IMG/VR virus record: IMGVR_UViG_3300030110_003257
Span: 1 to 38,703 of that record
DNA from: a virus
DNA length: 38,703 bases
Strand: one strand, 5' to 3'
Shown here: piece by piece, positions 15,336 to 37,214 of the stretch
Numbering within the stretch: position 1 is the first letter of the stretch
How the letters are laid out: each line of letters opens with the position of its first letter
Notes under the pieces: model-generated
Seen by the model: the letters and a program-made list of their open reading frames with translations, nothing else
Told to the model about the DNA's origin: nothing
Databases searched by the model: none
Position numbers and translations under genes: made by a program

Positions 15336-15345
15336 GGGGGGAATG

Positions 15346-16194
15346 ATGACAGAAGAACTAAAAGGCTCAACGACGCTTGCCGATGGCGGCGTCTATGAGT
15401 ACGGCGGCGGTACGGATGACCCGATGGTATTGTACTTTCGGGTGTCCACTGCGAAGCAGGGCGCCGACGGCCTGGGTATCGATGCACAAAAACAGATGTG
15501 CATCAACTACCTCAATGGCGGCAAATGGAAAGTCATAGGCGAATTTATTGAGGTGGAATCCGGCGGCAAATCGGAGAAGGAAAGGAAGCAACTGGATGCC
15601 GCGCTGGCGCTATGTCAAAAGCACGGCGCCACGCTCCTGGTGGCGAAGCTGGACAGGCTAAGCCGCTCAGTGGCGTTCGTGTCCAGGCTCATGGAATCGG
15701 GCATCAAGTTCGTATGCGCCGACCAGCCCCACGTATCTGACCTCACCATCCACATCATCGTGGCCATGGCTCAATATGAGCGTGAGCAAATCAGTGATCG
15801 GGTCAAAAAAACCCGCGCCGAAATGAAGCGCATCATCGCGGAAGACGGGTTCTATGCCACCAAGTCGTCTAATCGCCAGAAGAAACTTACCAAGCTAGGA
15901 TCCGACAATTGGGATCAGGTCCAGAAGGAAGGGCAAAAGGTCAAGCAGACCAGGGCCGACGCCTATGCGCTCAGCGTATGGCCTGAAATCGTGCAGTGCC
16001 GCCAGCTTGGTATGACTACCATGCGGCTAATCGCGAAAGAACTGACCAGGCGTGGCGTTCAGACCCGCGCACGGCAGCGACAGATCGACAAGGACAAGGC
16101 CGTGTTTGGCAAGCCCGGGTATGGGGAGGGGGAATGGCACTGGCACCCGCAACAGGTGAAAGCCATCATTGATCGTGTCGAAGGTGATAAATAG
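15346..16194 (+). CDS. Serine recombinase (resolvase/invertase family)
   Basis: A protein of 282 residues (283 if the preceding ATG at 15343 is used). The catalytic domain opens with VLYFRVSTAKQGADGLGIDA, where the Ser after R-V is the nucleophile, and continues with the KLDRLSRSV motif and the MAQYEREQISDRVK helix that leads to the DNA-binding half. The C-terminal part holds an HTH-like segment (MTTMRLIAKELTRRGVQTRA) before WHPQQVKAIIDRV. It is longer than classic resolvases (about 190) and shorter than large serine integrases. No tyrosine integrase is present, so it may integrate the phage, resolve dimers or invert DNA. No attachment site was recognised. Confidence 0.88.
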   Translation: MTEELKGSTTLADGGVYEYGGGTDDPMVLYFRVSTAKQGADGLGIDAQKQMCINYLNGGKWKVIGEFIEVESGGKSEKERKQLDAALALCQKHGATLLVAKLDRLSRSVAFVSRLMESGIKFVCADQPHVSDLTIHIIVAMAQYEREQISDRVKKTRAEMKRIIAEDGFYATKSSNRQKKLTKLGSDNWDQVQKEGQKVKQTRADAYALSVWPEIVQCRQLGMTTMRLIAKELTRRGVQTRARQRQIDKDKAVFGKPGYGEGEWHWHPQQVKAIIDRVEGDK

Positions 16195-16994: not shown

Positions 16995-17942
16995 ATGGTA
17001 GGCAAACTGACATCAAACGTCATGTGTAGCTGTAGTATCTTGCCCTATGTCATGGGCTTATCGCCGTATAAAACCCGCAACGAACAGCTACTGGAAATGT
17101 GGGCACACAAGGAAGGCAAGGGCAAAGAGTGGGAAGGCAATGAAAGCACACACTTTGGCAATGTCCTTGAGCCAACAGTCCTCACGGAAGGGTGCAACCG
17201 CCTGGGCCTCGTTCCCGAACTTAATATAACCGAACCTGTGGTGCATCCAACACTGCCGCTGGCGGGTAGCCTAGATGGCAGGGCCGATGGCAAGAGTATG
17301 ACCATACATCATGACCCGTCGAAGGGTATCTATGTAGTGGGCAATAGCCGCATTGTGTTGGATGGCATCGGCGTTCTTGAGAGCAAGGTGACGCGGAGCC
17401 GGGCAGAAGACTTCCCACCCATGTGGCGCGGCCCTGTCCAGGTGCAGGGTCAGATGATGTGCGGCGGCTATAAGTGGGCGGCACTGATCATCTTATACGG
17501 CGGCGTGGAAATGCGGATCTTCCTGTTTACCCTTCATGCCGGCACAGAGAAATCCATCAGTGAAGCATGCTTGGATTTGGATAGACGGCTAAACGCCGAC
17601 GAAATCGAATACTACGATCTTGCCGATGCGGCCGATGCCGCACTTGTTTACTCGCTTGGCGACAAGGAAGAACCTATCGATCTGCCAGCCGGGTTTGACA
17701 TTCTCTGCGAAGAATACTTGTTGCTGAAAGAAAAGATTAAAGAAGGCGGCGAGGCACTTGGAGTGCTAACCGCTGAAATCCAACGGAAGATGGGCAACCA
17801 CACATCCGGCCTGGCCGGAAACTATCGTGTCTCTTGGCCTGTCAAAAAATATCGTGAGCAACCTGAGAAGATCGTACCGGCTAAGCCGGCGCATCAGGCG
17901 CGTCAAAAAACCATTAATGTAAAGGAAATGAAAAATGGGTGA
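16995..17942 (+). CDS. YqaJ-type viral recombinase (5'-3' exonuclease)
   Basis: A 315-residue member of the YqaJ/lambda-exonuclease fold. The N-terminus shows LPYVMGLSPYKTRNEQLLEM (the G-x-S-P-Y/W-K-T entry), ESTHFGNVLEPTVLTEGCNR (Glu in the active site), then GVLESKVTRSRAEDFPPMWR (Glu-x-Lys metal-binding core) and VQVQGQMMCGGYKWAALIIL. Such enzymes chew one DNA strand so that RecT-type annealases can act. It overlaps the RecT gene by eight bases, the classic exonuclease-annealase pair. Confidence 0.88.
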   Translation: MVGKLTSNVMCSCSILPYVMGLSPYKTRNEQLLEMWAHKEGKGKEWEGNESTHFGNVLEPTVLTEGCNRLGLVPELNITEPVVHPTLPLAGSLDGRADGKSMTIHHDPSKGIYVVGNSRIVLDGIGVLESKVTRSRAEDFPPMWRGPVQVQGQMMCGGYKWAALIILYGGVEMRIFLFTLHAGTEKSISEACLDLDRRLNADEIEYYDLADAADAALVYSLGDKEEPIDLPAGFDILCEEYLLLKEKIKEGGEALGVLTAEIQRKMGNHTSGLAGNYRVSWPVKKYREQPEKIVPAKPAHQARQKTINVKEMKNG

Positions 17943-18942
17943 AGTAGCTATTAAACAGAGCGGGATCCTGACGCCACGGAATATGGGCGAGGCCATGCAA
18001 TTTGCGGAAACAATGGCGGCGTCTGCGTTCTGTCCGAAAGCGTTCCAGGGTAGGCCGGCAGATATTGTGGTCGCCGTCCAGTGGGCAAGTGAAGTTGGGC
18101 TGGCGCCACTAGCTGCGATGCAGAACATGGCCGTGATAAATGGGAAGCCAAGCCTGTATGGTGACGGCATGATGGCGCTGATTACCGGCCATCCAGAATA
18201 CGTCAGCCATAAGGAATGGCGAGAAGGTGACGAAGCCTTTTGCACGATTGTTCGTATGCGGTTTGGCGAGAAAATTGAAACCACAAGATCTTTTTCTTTA
18301 GCCGACGCCAAACAAGCGGGGTTGACAGGCAAGGGACCGTGGCGGTCCTACCCCAAGCGCATGTTGCAGATGCGGGCGCGTGGGTTTGCGGCCAGGGATA
18401 GCTTCCCCGACGCACTCAGCGGCGTGATTATCAAGGAAGAGGCCATGGATTATCCGACAAAGCCGGATCAACCCAAAGATATTACCGATCAGGTGGTGGT
18501 TGCACCGTCAAACCCGATGGACGCGACGTTTGGGGGGGATGTTCCAGAAAGTGACCCGCCAGAATTGCCTGAGAGCAACGCTGTGGATGTTTCTGATGCT
18601 GGTGTCCCAGAAAATGCGGATGTTGCTGAGAGCGCAACAGAGGACAACACAGACGAAGGCGACGAACGCGCCTGGGAAATGAACCATGAAGACGGCATTA
18701 AGGAGTTTTCAACAGCCGATAAATGGAAGACGGCCATGTGGAAGGTATGGAAGGACATTGAAGCCGACAAGGACATGAGTTTTGAAGACCGGCGCCATGA
18801 AATCGCGGAACACAAGAAAGATCACGACGATACGATTGATCGGCTCAAAGCGGAACACCCCGACAAGGCGGAAGCGTTCGGCAATGATTACAAAAAGATC
18901 CTACGGCGCTTGTCCGCCAAGGCAAAGGAAGCACAGAAATGA
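17935..18942 (+). CDS. recT: RecT-family single-strand annealing protein
   Basis: A 335-residue protein whose first 170 or so residues show the RecT pattern: MGEAMQFAETMAASAFCPKA, GRPADIVVAVQWASEVGLAP, LAAMQNMAVINGKPSLYGDG and RSYPKRMLQMRARGFAARDS. It anneals the single strands made by the adjacent exonuclease and supports phage recombination. An acidic Pro/Glu/Asp-rich linker (about 190-245) joins a helical C-terminal extension ending AKAKEAQK. The ATG has AAAGGA upstream and overlaps the exonuclease stop. Confidence 0.9.
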   Translation: MGEVAIKQSGILTPRNMGEAMQFAETMAASAFCPKAFQGRPADIVVAVQWASEVGLAPLAAMQNMAVINGKPSLYGDGMMALITGHPEYVSHKEWREGDEAFCTIVRMRFGEKIETTRSFSLADAKQAGLTGKGPWRSYPKRMLQMRARGFAARDSFPDALSGVIIKEEAMDYPTKPDQPKDITDQVVVAPSNPMDATFGGDVPESDPPELPESNAVDVSDAGVPENADVAESATEDNTDEGDERAWEMNHEDGIKEFSTADKWKTAMWKVWKDIEADKDMSFEDRRHEIAEHKKDHDDTIDRLKAEHPDKAEAFGNDYKKILRRLSAKAKEAQK

Positions 18943-36469: not shown

Positions 36470-36587
36470 GCAAAACCTCCTAATTTCCGATTTTTGTCAA
36501 AACCGCCAAAACTCGAAAAAAACACTTTTTTCAAAAATGAAATGATAAGTAAGCGTTTTAATTCAGTGACTTAATTTTTCGACTCTC

Positions 36588-36609
36588 AAAAAACCCAGCG
36601 TTTCTAGGG
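36588..36609 (-). terminator. Possible leftward terminator, bulged stem plus T6
   Basis: On the minus strand CCC(T)AG-AAACG-CTGGG is followed by six T. The stem is only five pairs with one bulge, so termination is likely partial. It would insulate the tail operon from leftward transcription crossing the orphan gene. Confidence 0.4.
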
Positions 36610-36636
36610 CTTTCAGCCATTTTTGAAAAATGCGCG

Positions 36637-36645
36637 TGTTATAAT
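36637..36645 (+). promoter_or_regulatory. Extended -10 promoter for the orphan rightward gene
   Basis: TG (36637-36638), one base, TATAAT (36640-36645): a perfect extended -10 element. The -35 region is poor. A start near 36652 gives a leader of about 85 bases that begins with the hairpin GCGGG-AAAA-CCCGC (36657-36670) and includes the left inverted repeat. Confidence 0.65.
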
Positions 36646-36656
36646 AGGTCAACAAA

Positions 36657-36670
36657 GCGGGAAAACCCGC
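36657..36670 (+). promoter_or_regulatory. Leader hairpin GCGGG-AAAA-CCCGC
   Basis: A perfect five-pair stem with an AAAA loop, placed just after the predicted transcription start. A 5' stem-loop can protect an mRNA from decay. Read on the minus strand it is followed by TTTGTT, so a weak leftward terminator is also possible. Confidence 0.45.
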
Positions 36671-36683
36671 GCCGCTATTTTAC

Positions 36684-36713
36684 ATTGTGAATAGGTAATC
36701 GTGTTGCCGTGGC
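36684..36713. repeat. 30-base inverted repeat, left arm
   Basis: Pairs with 37151-37180: 26 of 30 bases match the reverse complement. The four differences are all transitions of the kind that still pair as G-U in plus-strand RNA. The arms enclose the complete orphan gene with its ribosome site. Confidence 0.8.
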
Positions 36714-36737
36714 TTTCGCCATGAAAGGAGAATTGCC

Positions 36738-37097
36738 ATGGCCAACTCAAAAGACTTCCTTTGCTACATCCCGATGATGACAGGCGGCTCATACGGTCGC
36801 AACGAGGATCGGAGTGCAGCGGCCTTTGAAGCCTTCCAAACATTCACATCTGATTGGGGCAGCATGTTTGATGTCTTTGATCAAGAAGTGAAAGGCTACA
36901 TTGCCGATATTACTGGGTTTGACAAAGTTCAATTCGGACCCGGCAAAGGCATATGGGCCGAAACTGAGGATGGCAGTGAACATCTTTTTGAGCTTGAGGA
37001 AATTTCTATCCGAATGCCCAAGCTATTAGAAAGAGAGCGCCCGTCATCTAATGGGTTTCGCCGTAGGCTAAAGAAAGTTGTTTTAGCCTCTAAGTAA
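36738..37097 (+). CDS. 119-residue orphan protein on the opposite strand of the late region (moron-like)
   Basis: Begins MANSKDFLCYIPMMTGGSYG, acidic in the middle (SMFDVFDQEVKGYIADITGF, EDGSEHLFELEEIS) and basic at the end (RRRLKKVVLASK). No family is recognised. It is the only rightward gene in a long leftward late region, has its own promoter (TATAAT 36640) and a strong AAAGGAG site, is bounded by 30-bp inverted repeats and has terminators on its far side for leftward transcription. These are features of a moron, a self-contained extra gene often expressed in lysogens, though they do not tell its function. Confidence 0.75.
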   Translation: MANSKDFLCYIPMMTGGSYGRNEDRSAAAFEAFQTFTSDWGSMFDVFDQEVKGYIADITGFDKVQFGPGKGIWAETEDGSEHLFELEEISIRMPKLLERERPSSNGFRRRLKKVVLASK

Positions 37098-37122
37098 AAA
37101 ACGCCTAGGGCTGGACCCCTAG
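37096..37122 (-). terminator. Leftward intrinsic terminator
   Basis: CTAGGG (37105-37110), a six-base loop, CCCTAG (37117-37122). On the minus strand the hairpin is followed by GCG and six T. It lies at the end of the orphan gene and stops leftward transcription coming from the coat operon side. Confidence 0.75.
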
Positions 37123-37150
37123 ACGCTTCTATCTAACTTCTCTTAACACC

Positions 37151-37180
37151 GCCACGGTAGCACGGTTACTTATTCACAAT
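37151..37180. repeat. 30-base inverted repeat, right arm
   Basis: Reverse complement partner of 36684-36713. It lies between the two leftward terminators at 37096 and 37186, outside any gene. Confidence 0.8.
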
Positions 37181-37185
37181 CAATT

Positions 37186-37214
37186 TAAAAGGAAAGGGGG
37201 GCGCGAAGCCCCCC
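37186..37214 (-). terminator. Strong leftward intrinsic terminator of the coat operon
   Basis: GGGGGGC (37196-37202), loop GCGAA, GCCCCCC (37208-37214), and on the minus strand the stem is followed by TTTCCTTTT. It begins just after the stop of the probable decoration gene and should end most coat-operon transcripts. Confidence 0.85.

Follow-up and report, generated by a model that had tools for sequence, protein, structure and literature searches.

A phage gene cassette that probably imitates the front and back of an rRNA operon around exchangeable protein genes

The present study describes a cassette in a 38,703-nucleotide stretch of viral DNA (IMG/VR record IMGVR_UViG_3300030110_003257, positions 1 to 38,703; hereafter, the window) that places one small protein gene inside a conserved RNA frame. 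The cassette spans approximately 36482..37186 on the plus strand, from the promoter region to the 3′ elements, its ends being estimated by comparison with an empty site and of the left flanks. We consider it probable that this is a moron cassette that mimics an rRNA operon, with a transcript that imitates the operon's front and back. Its layout, a long helix, two covarying hairpins, a similarity to boxA, and the exchange of cargo and site can be read from the sequences; the RNA helix and the cassette exchange are both well supported at that level.

Results

The window phage, with a GC content of about 51%, belongs to the podoviruses and is a relative of HTVC010P-type pelagiphages; its capsid protein (PF19821) shares 56% identity with the counterpart in Pelagibacter phage Baldr. 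The two contig ends (1-901 and 37807-38703, in the capsid region) are 85% identical in an overlap of about 900 nt; this probably reflects a circular genome joined across two strain variants and not a true repeat. The first-pass annotation had described a lone rightward gene in a leftward late region, and the gene indeed lies between the tail-tube and decoration genes, inside the leftward late operon. The leftward terminator of the decoration gene (37195..37214, minus strand) adjoins the cassette from the outside and is also found at the empty site of a related locus, L037. In the cultured relatives Baldr and HTVC010P, the cassette is absent from the window's site, and no DNA copy of it was found in cultured phages.

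The cargo is an ORF of 119 aa (36738..37097, plus strand), found with 64 to 100% identity in 11 IMG/VR loci and under purifying selection (dN/dS 0.2-0.5). A ribosome-binding site, AAAGGAG (36724..36730, plus strand), lies 7 nt 5′ of the ATG at 36738 and is conserved in the relatives. The protein has no Pfam or PHROG match, and a cargo profile search of 385 alphaproteobacterial genomes gave no match. Its predicted structure is of low confidence (pLDDT 61.5), with no fold match and no relative in the PDB.

The two arms of the inverted repeat reported in the first-pass annotation, a leader arm at 36684..36713 and a trailer arm at 37151..37180 (both plus strand), match at 26 of 30 positions, a complementarity higher than that of any other long inverted repeat in the window. 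In the window, each of the four differences gives a G-U pair on the plus strand, as had been noted. Across the family, this is a tendency and not a rule (26 G-U cells versus 4 A-C and 4 U-U, over 8 distinct sequences). Our own count of distinct imperfect pairs over all phage groups (about 11 G-U versus 3 A-C) makes a plus-strand bias suggestive only. When the RNA from 36650 to 37210 was folded, the arms were fully paired (z = −5.7; 0 of 100 shuffles did as well), and all 11 IMG/VR loci with the cargo gene retain both arms.

The arms change between relatives in ways that preserve pairing, which supports the stem at the RNA level that had been proposed among other readings. At helix position 11, the pairs seen are G-C, G·U, and C-G; at position 12, they are G-C and A-U plus a single A·C; and at position 13, they are U-A, A-U, and U·U. 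Covariation was scored over 8 distinct sequences for a structure consisting of the 5′ hairpin, the 30-bp helix, and a hairpin after the stop codon (both described below). Of the cells, 93.8% were paired, and 8 pairs had both partners changed, compared with 4.4 in shuffles. The covariation score was 0.175 versus 0.105 after shuffling and was reached by 0 of 500 shuffles, a control that is lenient because the 8 sequences are few and related. When the partners were slid by one to three columns, paired cells fell from 94% to 34-45%, and the score did not exceed 0.074. The covariation support for the helix is thus strong, though not final. Separately, among closely related phages, L007 differs from L008-L012 by one right-arm base, and the pair at helix position 12 is broken (A-C) or restored (A-U) accordingly.

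Upstream of the arms, the frame contains an extended −10 promoter, TGTTATAAT (36637..36645, plus strand), which is kept in every relative; the first-pass annotation was therefore right to give the gene its own promoter. A 5′-terminal hairpin, GCGGG-AAAA-CCCGC (36657..36670, plus strand), follows in a boxB-like position, and it covaries from G-C to A-U in L036 and L037. Between this hairpin and the left arm lies a 20-mer, GCTATTTTACATTGTGAATA (36674..36693, plus strand), the most invariant part of the frame, whose end overlaps the first 10 nt of the arm. Hence, the bounds drawn earlier were correct for the arms and excluded what lies just upstream, namely the promoter, 5′ hairpin, and one half of the 20-mer. 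Behind the stop codon, a hairpin formed by CGCCTAGGG and CCCTAGACG (37102..37125, plus strand) has one conserved C×A mismatch in most copies, and among copies that carry different ORFs, four of its pairs have both partners changed. This hairpin is without a good U tract, and no terminator-like site was found on the plus strand. Rfam gave no match in the window or in the loci of the related family.

Long-distance pairing between the 5′ and 3′ ends of a small-gene mRNA recalls the hok/aapA type of control, in which removal of the 3′ end opens an otherwise translationally closed full-length mRNA. A 6-bp hairpin, GCCAUG:CAUGGC, which can hold the start codon and has a counterpart in L036 (ACCAUG:CAUGGU), would fit such control. 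However, the helix covers neither the Shine-Dalgarno sequence nor the AUG. The predicted cost of opening this region changes inconsistently upon removal of the right arm, rising from 9.6 to 11.9 in the window and falling from 9.9 to 5.8 in L007. We regard control of this type as improbable.

The frame of the window from the extended −10 promoter through the 3′ arm, which we call F1, encloses three unrelated ORFs of 119 aa, 153 aa (L036), and about 93 aa (L037), and it occurs at three genomic sites in different podoviruses. At the tail-tube/decoration site, it is found in the window and, around the unrelated 153-aa ORF, in L036. At the scaffold/capsid site of another podovirus (L005/L006), it carries the window's gene and arms, and beside the portal gene in L037 it carries the unrelated ORF of about 93 aa. 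The presence of three unrelated ORFs at three sites indicates a portable cassette that swaps its cargo. The sites are also found empty: L037 has a 48-nt gap at the window's site, reading CTCC directly followed by AAAAGAAAAGGGGG where the filled site reads CTCC, the cassette, and AAAAGGAAAGGGGGG, and the window has no cassette at the portal site of L037. Two upstream subtypes are found, paired with differing sites and cargo, a pattern indicative of recombination.

The edges of the cassette bear on how it moves. The first-pass annotation had suggested that the repeats are the ends of a nonautonomous mobile cassette, and the search for the frame at other loci and in other phages upheld the mobility, with other sites and other ORFs, and not the placement of the ends. 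Conserved sequence stops just beyond the right arm and extends about 180 to 200 nt to the left of the left arm, so the two arms cannot both be the ends of the transferred unit. A nonautonomous transposon, with the repeats as terminal sites for a transposase or recombinase, would account for the sharp right edge and for the presence of this gene and its arms at separate sites in different phages. It would also suit the extra gene of L026 and L038, which has a weak inverted repeat of its own and separates the 20-mer from the outer arm. Against it stand the far left edge, the lack of a target-site duplication (none had been reported earlier and none was seen here), the variation of cargo between copies, the insertion at gene junctions, and the fact that hairpins and promoter position are features of a transcript. 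Such an element is very unlikely.

Inversion of the segment by the serine recombinase encoded at 15343-16194, also raised earlier, deserves almost no credence. The recombinase domain is real (Resolvase; DNA invertase/integrase), but the arms are imperfect and differ between copies. Moreover, relative to the late genes, the orientation is uniform in all 12 copies with the cargo gene and in L036 and L037, contrary to that proposal. The window phage encodes a RecE-like exonuclease and a RecT-like annealing protein (16995-18942), and the frame is probably reused through homologous recombination or annealing at its conserved ends.

Cargo families are also found outside the frame. Citromicrobium phage RXM encodes a distant relative of the 119-aa protein (L016:1977-2270). 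Relatives of the L036 cargo occur in Sinorhizobium, Tunturiibacter, and Myxococcus phages (51 to 57% identity), and the cargo of a second phage group, F2, has a relative in Roseobacter phage CRP-901 (44%). No comparable inverted repeats surround the unframed relatives examined; frame and cargo thus evolve separately. The RXM gene lies five genes from one annotated as the anti-CRISPR AcrVA2, and the relative of the L036 cargo in Sinorhizobium phage Phosso (L058:1501-1929) lies within a tRNA array.

A scan of phages for exact matches to GCTATTTTACATTGTGAATA found the 20-mer in three unrelated groups, F1, F2, and F3, with one copy per phage record. In each group, there is an extended −10 element (TG-n-(−10) hexamers at the equivalent position in F2 and F3), a hairpin 0 to 5 nt before the 20-mer, and inverted repeats around the ORF that follows. 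The hairpins share this position and are unrelated in sequence between the groups. The F2 phages (L026, L038, L039, and L042), whose DNA polymerase is nearest to HTVC023P-like phages, have a different, nearly perfect 27-bp repeat around an ORF of about 258 aa. In L026 (12881-13990) and L038, where the extra small gene is inserted, a single 20-mer is thus followed by two tandem genes, each of which has an inverted repeat to itself. The F3 phages (L040 and L041), nearest to Baldr, have ORFs of 90 and 78 aa. Their right arm pairs with the 20-mer itself as well, in a helix of 12 + 11 complementary bases seen in two phages, with an energy not above that of shuffles. The position of the helix relative to the 20-mer varies, a point against a common rrn-like scheme: it overlaps half of the 20-mer in F1, lies downstream of it in F2, and overlaps it fully in F3. 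No 20-mer within 4 mismatches was found in the stretches examined of Baldr, HTVC010P, and MEP301, and a scan with a 17-mer added only chance-like matches, mostly within coding sequence.

This comparison also weighs on an explanation in which the 20-mer and the hairpin act as an antitermination leader and the arms are recombination homology whose pairing has no function. The arms do travel with the conserved frame between sites, the RecE/RecT-like proteins could recombine by homology, and the F2 helix lies outside the 20-mer. On the other hand, the arms change together to preserve pairing at positions 11, 12, and 13; unrelated arm sequences stand at the equivalent place in F2 and F3; and direct homology needs no complementarity between the arms. 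We therefore find a leader without a functional helix unlikely.

The 20-mer is not confined to phages. One bacterial genome, L043, has a single exact copy; chance was ruled out here, as the copy belongs to a multicopy boxA-like family. One alphaproteobacterial genome has 11 copies with no more than 3 mismatches, and its family, in which the common form is GCTCTTTGACATTGTGAATA, has copies in 16 of 48 genomes; the reversed control gave 0 in both cases. For comparison, the boxA in the E. coli rrnH leader reads TGCTCTTTAACAATTTA. Leaders of the 16S genes found among 115 alphaproteobacterial genomes were then compared with 200 shuffled leaders each. Leader L107 has GCTCTTTGACATTGTGGATA at −180 from 16S, L124 has GCTCTTTGACATTGTAGATA at −269, and L102 has GCTGTTTGACATTGTAAAAA at −186, each beating 200 of 200 shuffled leaders. 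Overall, the 16S-adjacent matches have 3 to 6 mismatches to the 20-mer, and 0 to 1 of 200 shuffles were as good. Many other 16S leaders tested had no significant match. GAAGGGATGCGCAGGCGGCG, or a close form, follows boxA in several 16S leaders. In L078, GCTATTTGACATTGTGAATA differs from the phage form at a single base and is followed by this rrn signature, there GAAGGGATACGCGGGCGGCG; the signature also follows the motif in L080, L081, L085, L087, and L094. Several of the signature-bearing contigs end soon after the motif, as broken rRNA operons do.

Taken together, the matches in 16S leaders and the signature behind them make the 20-mer best read as an rrn-type boxA with a downstream extension, as judged against alphaproteobacterial rrn leaders. 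One point against this reading is position 4, at which the 20-mer has A and the gammaproteobacterial boxA consensus, GYTCTTTAANA, has C (PMC5725501), although the rrn-type leaders of the relatives also have an A there.

Most of the bacterial boxA-like copies lie neither upstream of rRNA nor before a helix-framed ORF, so boxA alone is not proof of rRNA mimicry and serves wider purposes in these genomes; these copies are possibly noncoding RNAs or other Nus targets. Up to 13 boxA-like 20-mers per genome were counted in one alphaproteobacterial family (L062-L072, L073-L100). GTTC-N7-GTTC, the pattern of the alphaproteobacterial LexA box, occurs within 150 nt upstream of the motif in L073, L074, L088, L090, L091, L098, L099, and the phage locus L039. 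Pairing of the 20-mer with 16S/23S rRNA was considered and rejected, as it was no better than that of shuffles in E. coli rRNA.

Discussion

We propose that host polymerase would initiate at the extended −10 promoter and transcribe, in order, the hairpin in the boxB position, the boxA 20-mer, and the left arm of the helix, with the right arm following past the ORF. NusB-S10 and other host Nus factors would bind boxA and remain with the polymerase, and the Nus-bound rightward transcript, inside a leftward late operon, would resist Rho. The left arm, tethered through boxA, could then pair with the right arm upon its emergence. The closed helix, with or without trimming by RNase III, would yield a discrete mRNA with protected ends. 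In this scheme, the order of the elements and the helix come from the sequence comparison, and Nus binding, antitermination, tethering, RNase III processing, and mRNA stability are what the resemblance to rRNA operons leads us to infer.

More tentatively, phages of several unrelated groups may keep a "pseudo-rRNA operon" format, that is, end-clamped, cargo-swapping single-gene mRNAs that recruit the host's rRNA antitermination complexes. BoxA antitermination and the leader-trailer helix have been treated mainly as features of rRNA. A cassette in which the two surround varying protein genes would let their nonribosomal roles be tested in a natural setting. The rrnTAC structures (PMC10250234) raise the question of whether boxA tethering makes distant RNA ends pair, for which such a cassette would be a test case. 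If true, the proposal would explain how a gene opposing the phage late operon is transcribed. Besides, the 20-mer and the arms offer a sequence handle for finding accessory genes of marine phages.

The closest known system is the leader of rRNA operons. There, the order is boxB-boxA-boxC, boxA is necessary and sufficient for the antitermination complex, and NusB-bound boxA has been proposed to retain the leader strand until the trailer emerges; the leader-trailer helix is about 30 bp for pre-16S and 27 bp for pre-23S (PMC10250234). The cassette shares the promoter, the hairpin near the predicted start, the boxA match, and a 5′-3′ helix of about 30 bp with this leader (PMC10250234, PMC4807359). 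It differs in enclosing a phage ORF with its own ribosome-binding site and swappable cargo, with no rRNA (no Rfam match in the window), and a separate boxC was not identified in it. The nut site of lambda (boxA, boxB, and the N protein) likewise combines a hairpin and a Nus-recruiting boxA in a phage transcript (PMC10250234), whereas in the cassette the hairpin precedes boxA, as in rrn, and one small gene is enclosed by a helix. The suhB mRNA, likewise from a protein gene, carries boxA in its 5′ UTR (PMC5725501). However, that boxA represses, and no leader-trailer helix has been described there; the cassette mRNA would be closed by its helix.

As a genetic unit, the cassette resembles a phage moron (PMC7067206): a lone gene with its own promoter, variably present among relatives, and oriented independently of its neighbors, here against the late operon. 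It differs in the reuse of one conserved RNA frame around unrelated genes. The PeSL elements of T4-like phages (cited in PMC4503421) are also units of a promoter and an RNA stem that are thought to shuffle small genes. PeSLs combine an early promoter with an adjoining stem-loop and occur in many copies per genome, whereas the 20-mer occurs once per phage record, and the stem of the cassette joins the two ends of an mRNA and includes boxA. Mycobacteriophage MPME1 (PMC3029335) is similar as a phage unit of about 0.4 to 0.7 kb that holds a single small ORF and has inverted repeats. In contrast, MPME1 is identical between sites and adds 6 bp upon insertion, while in the cassette the cargo varies, the arms are internal, and no addition was seen.
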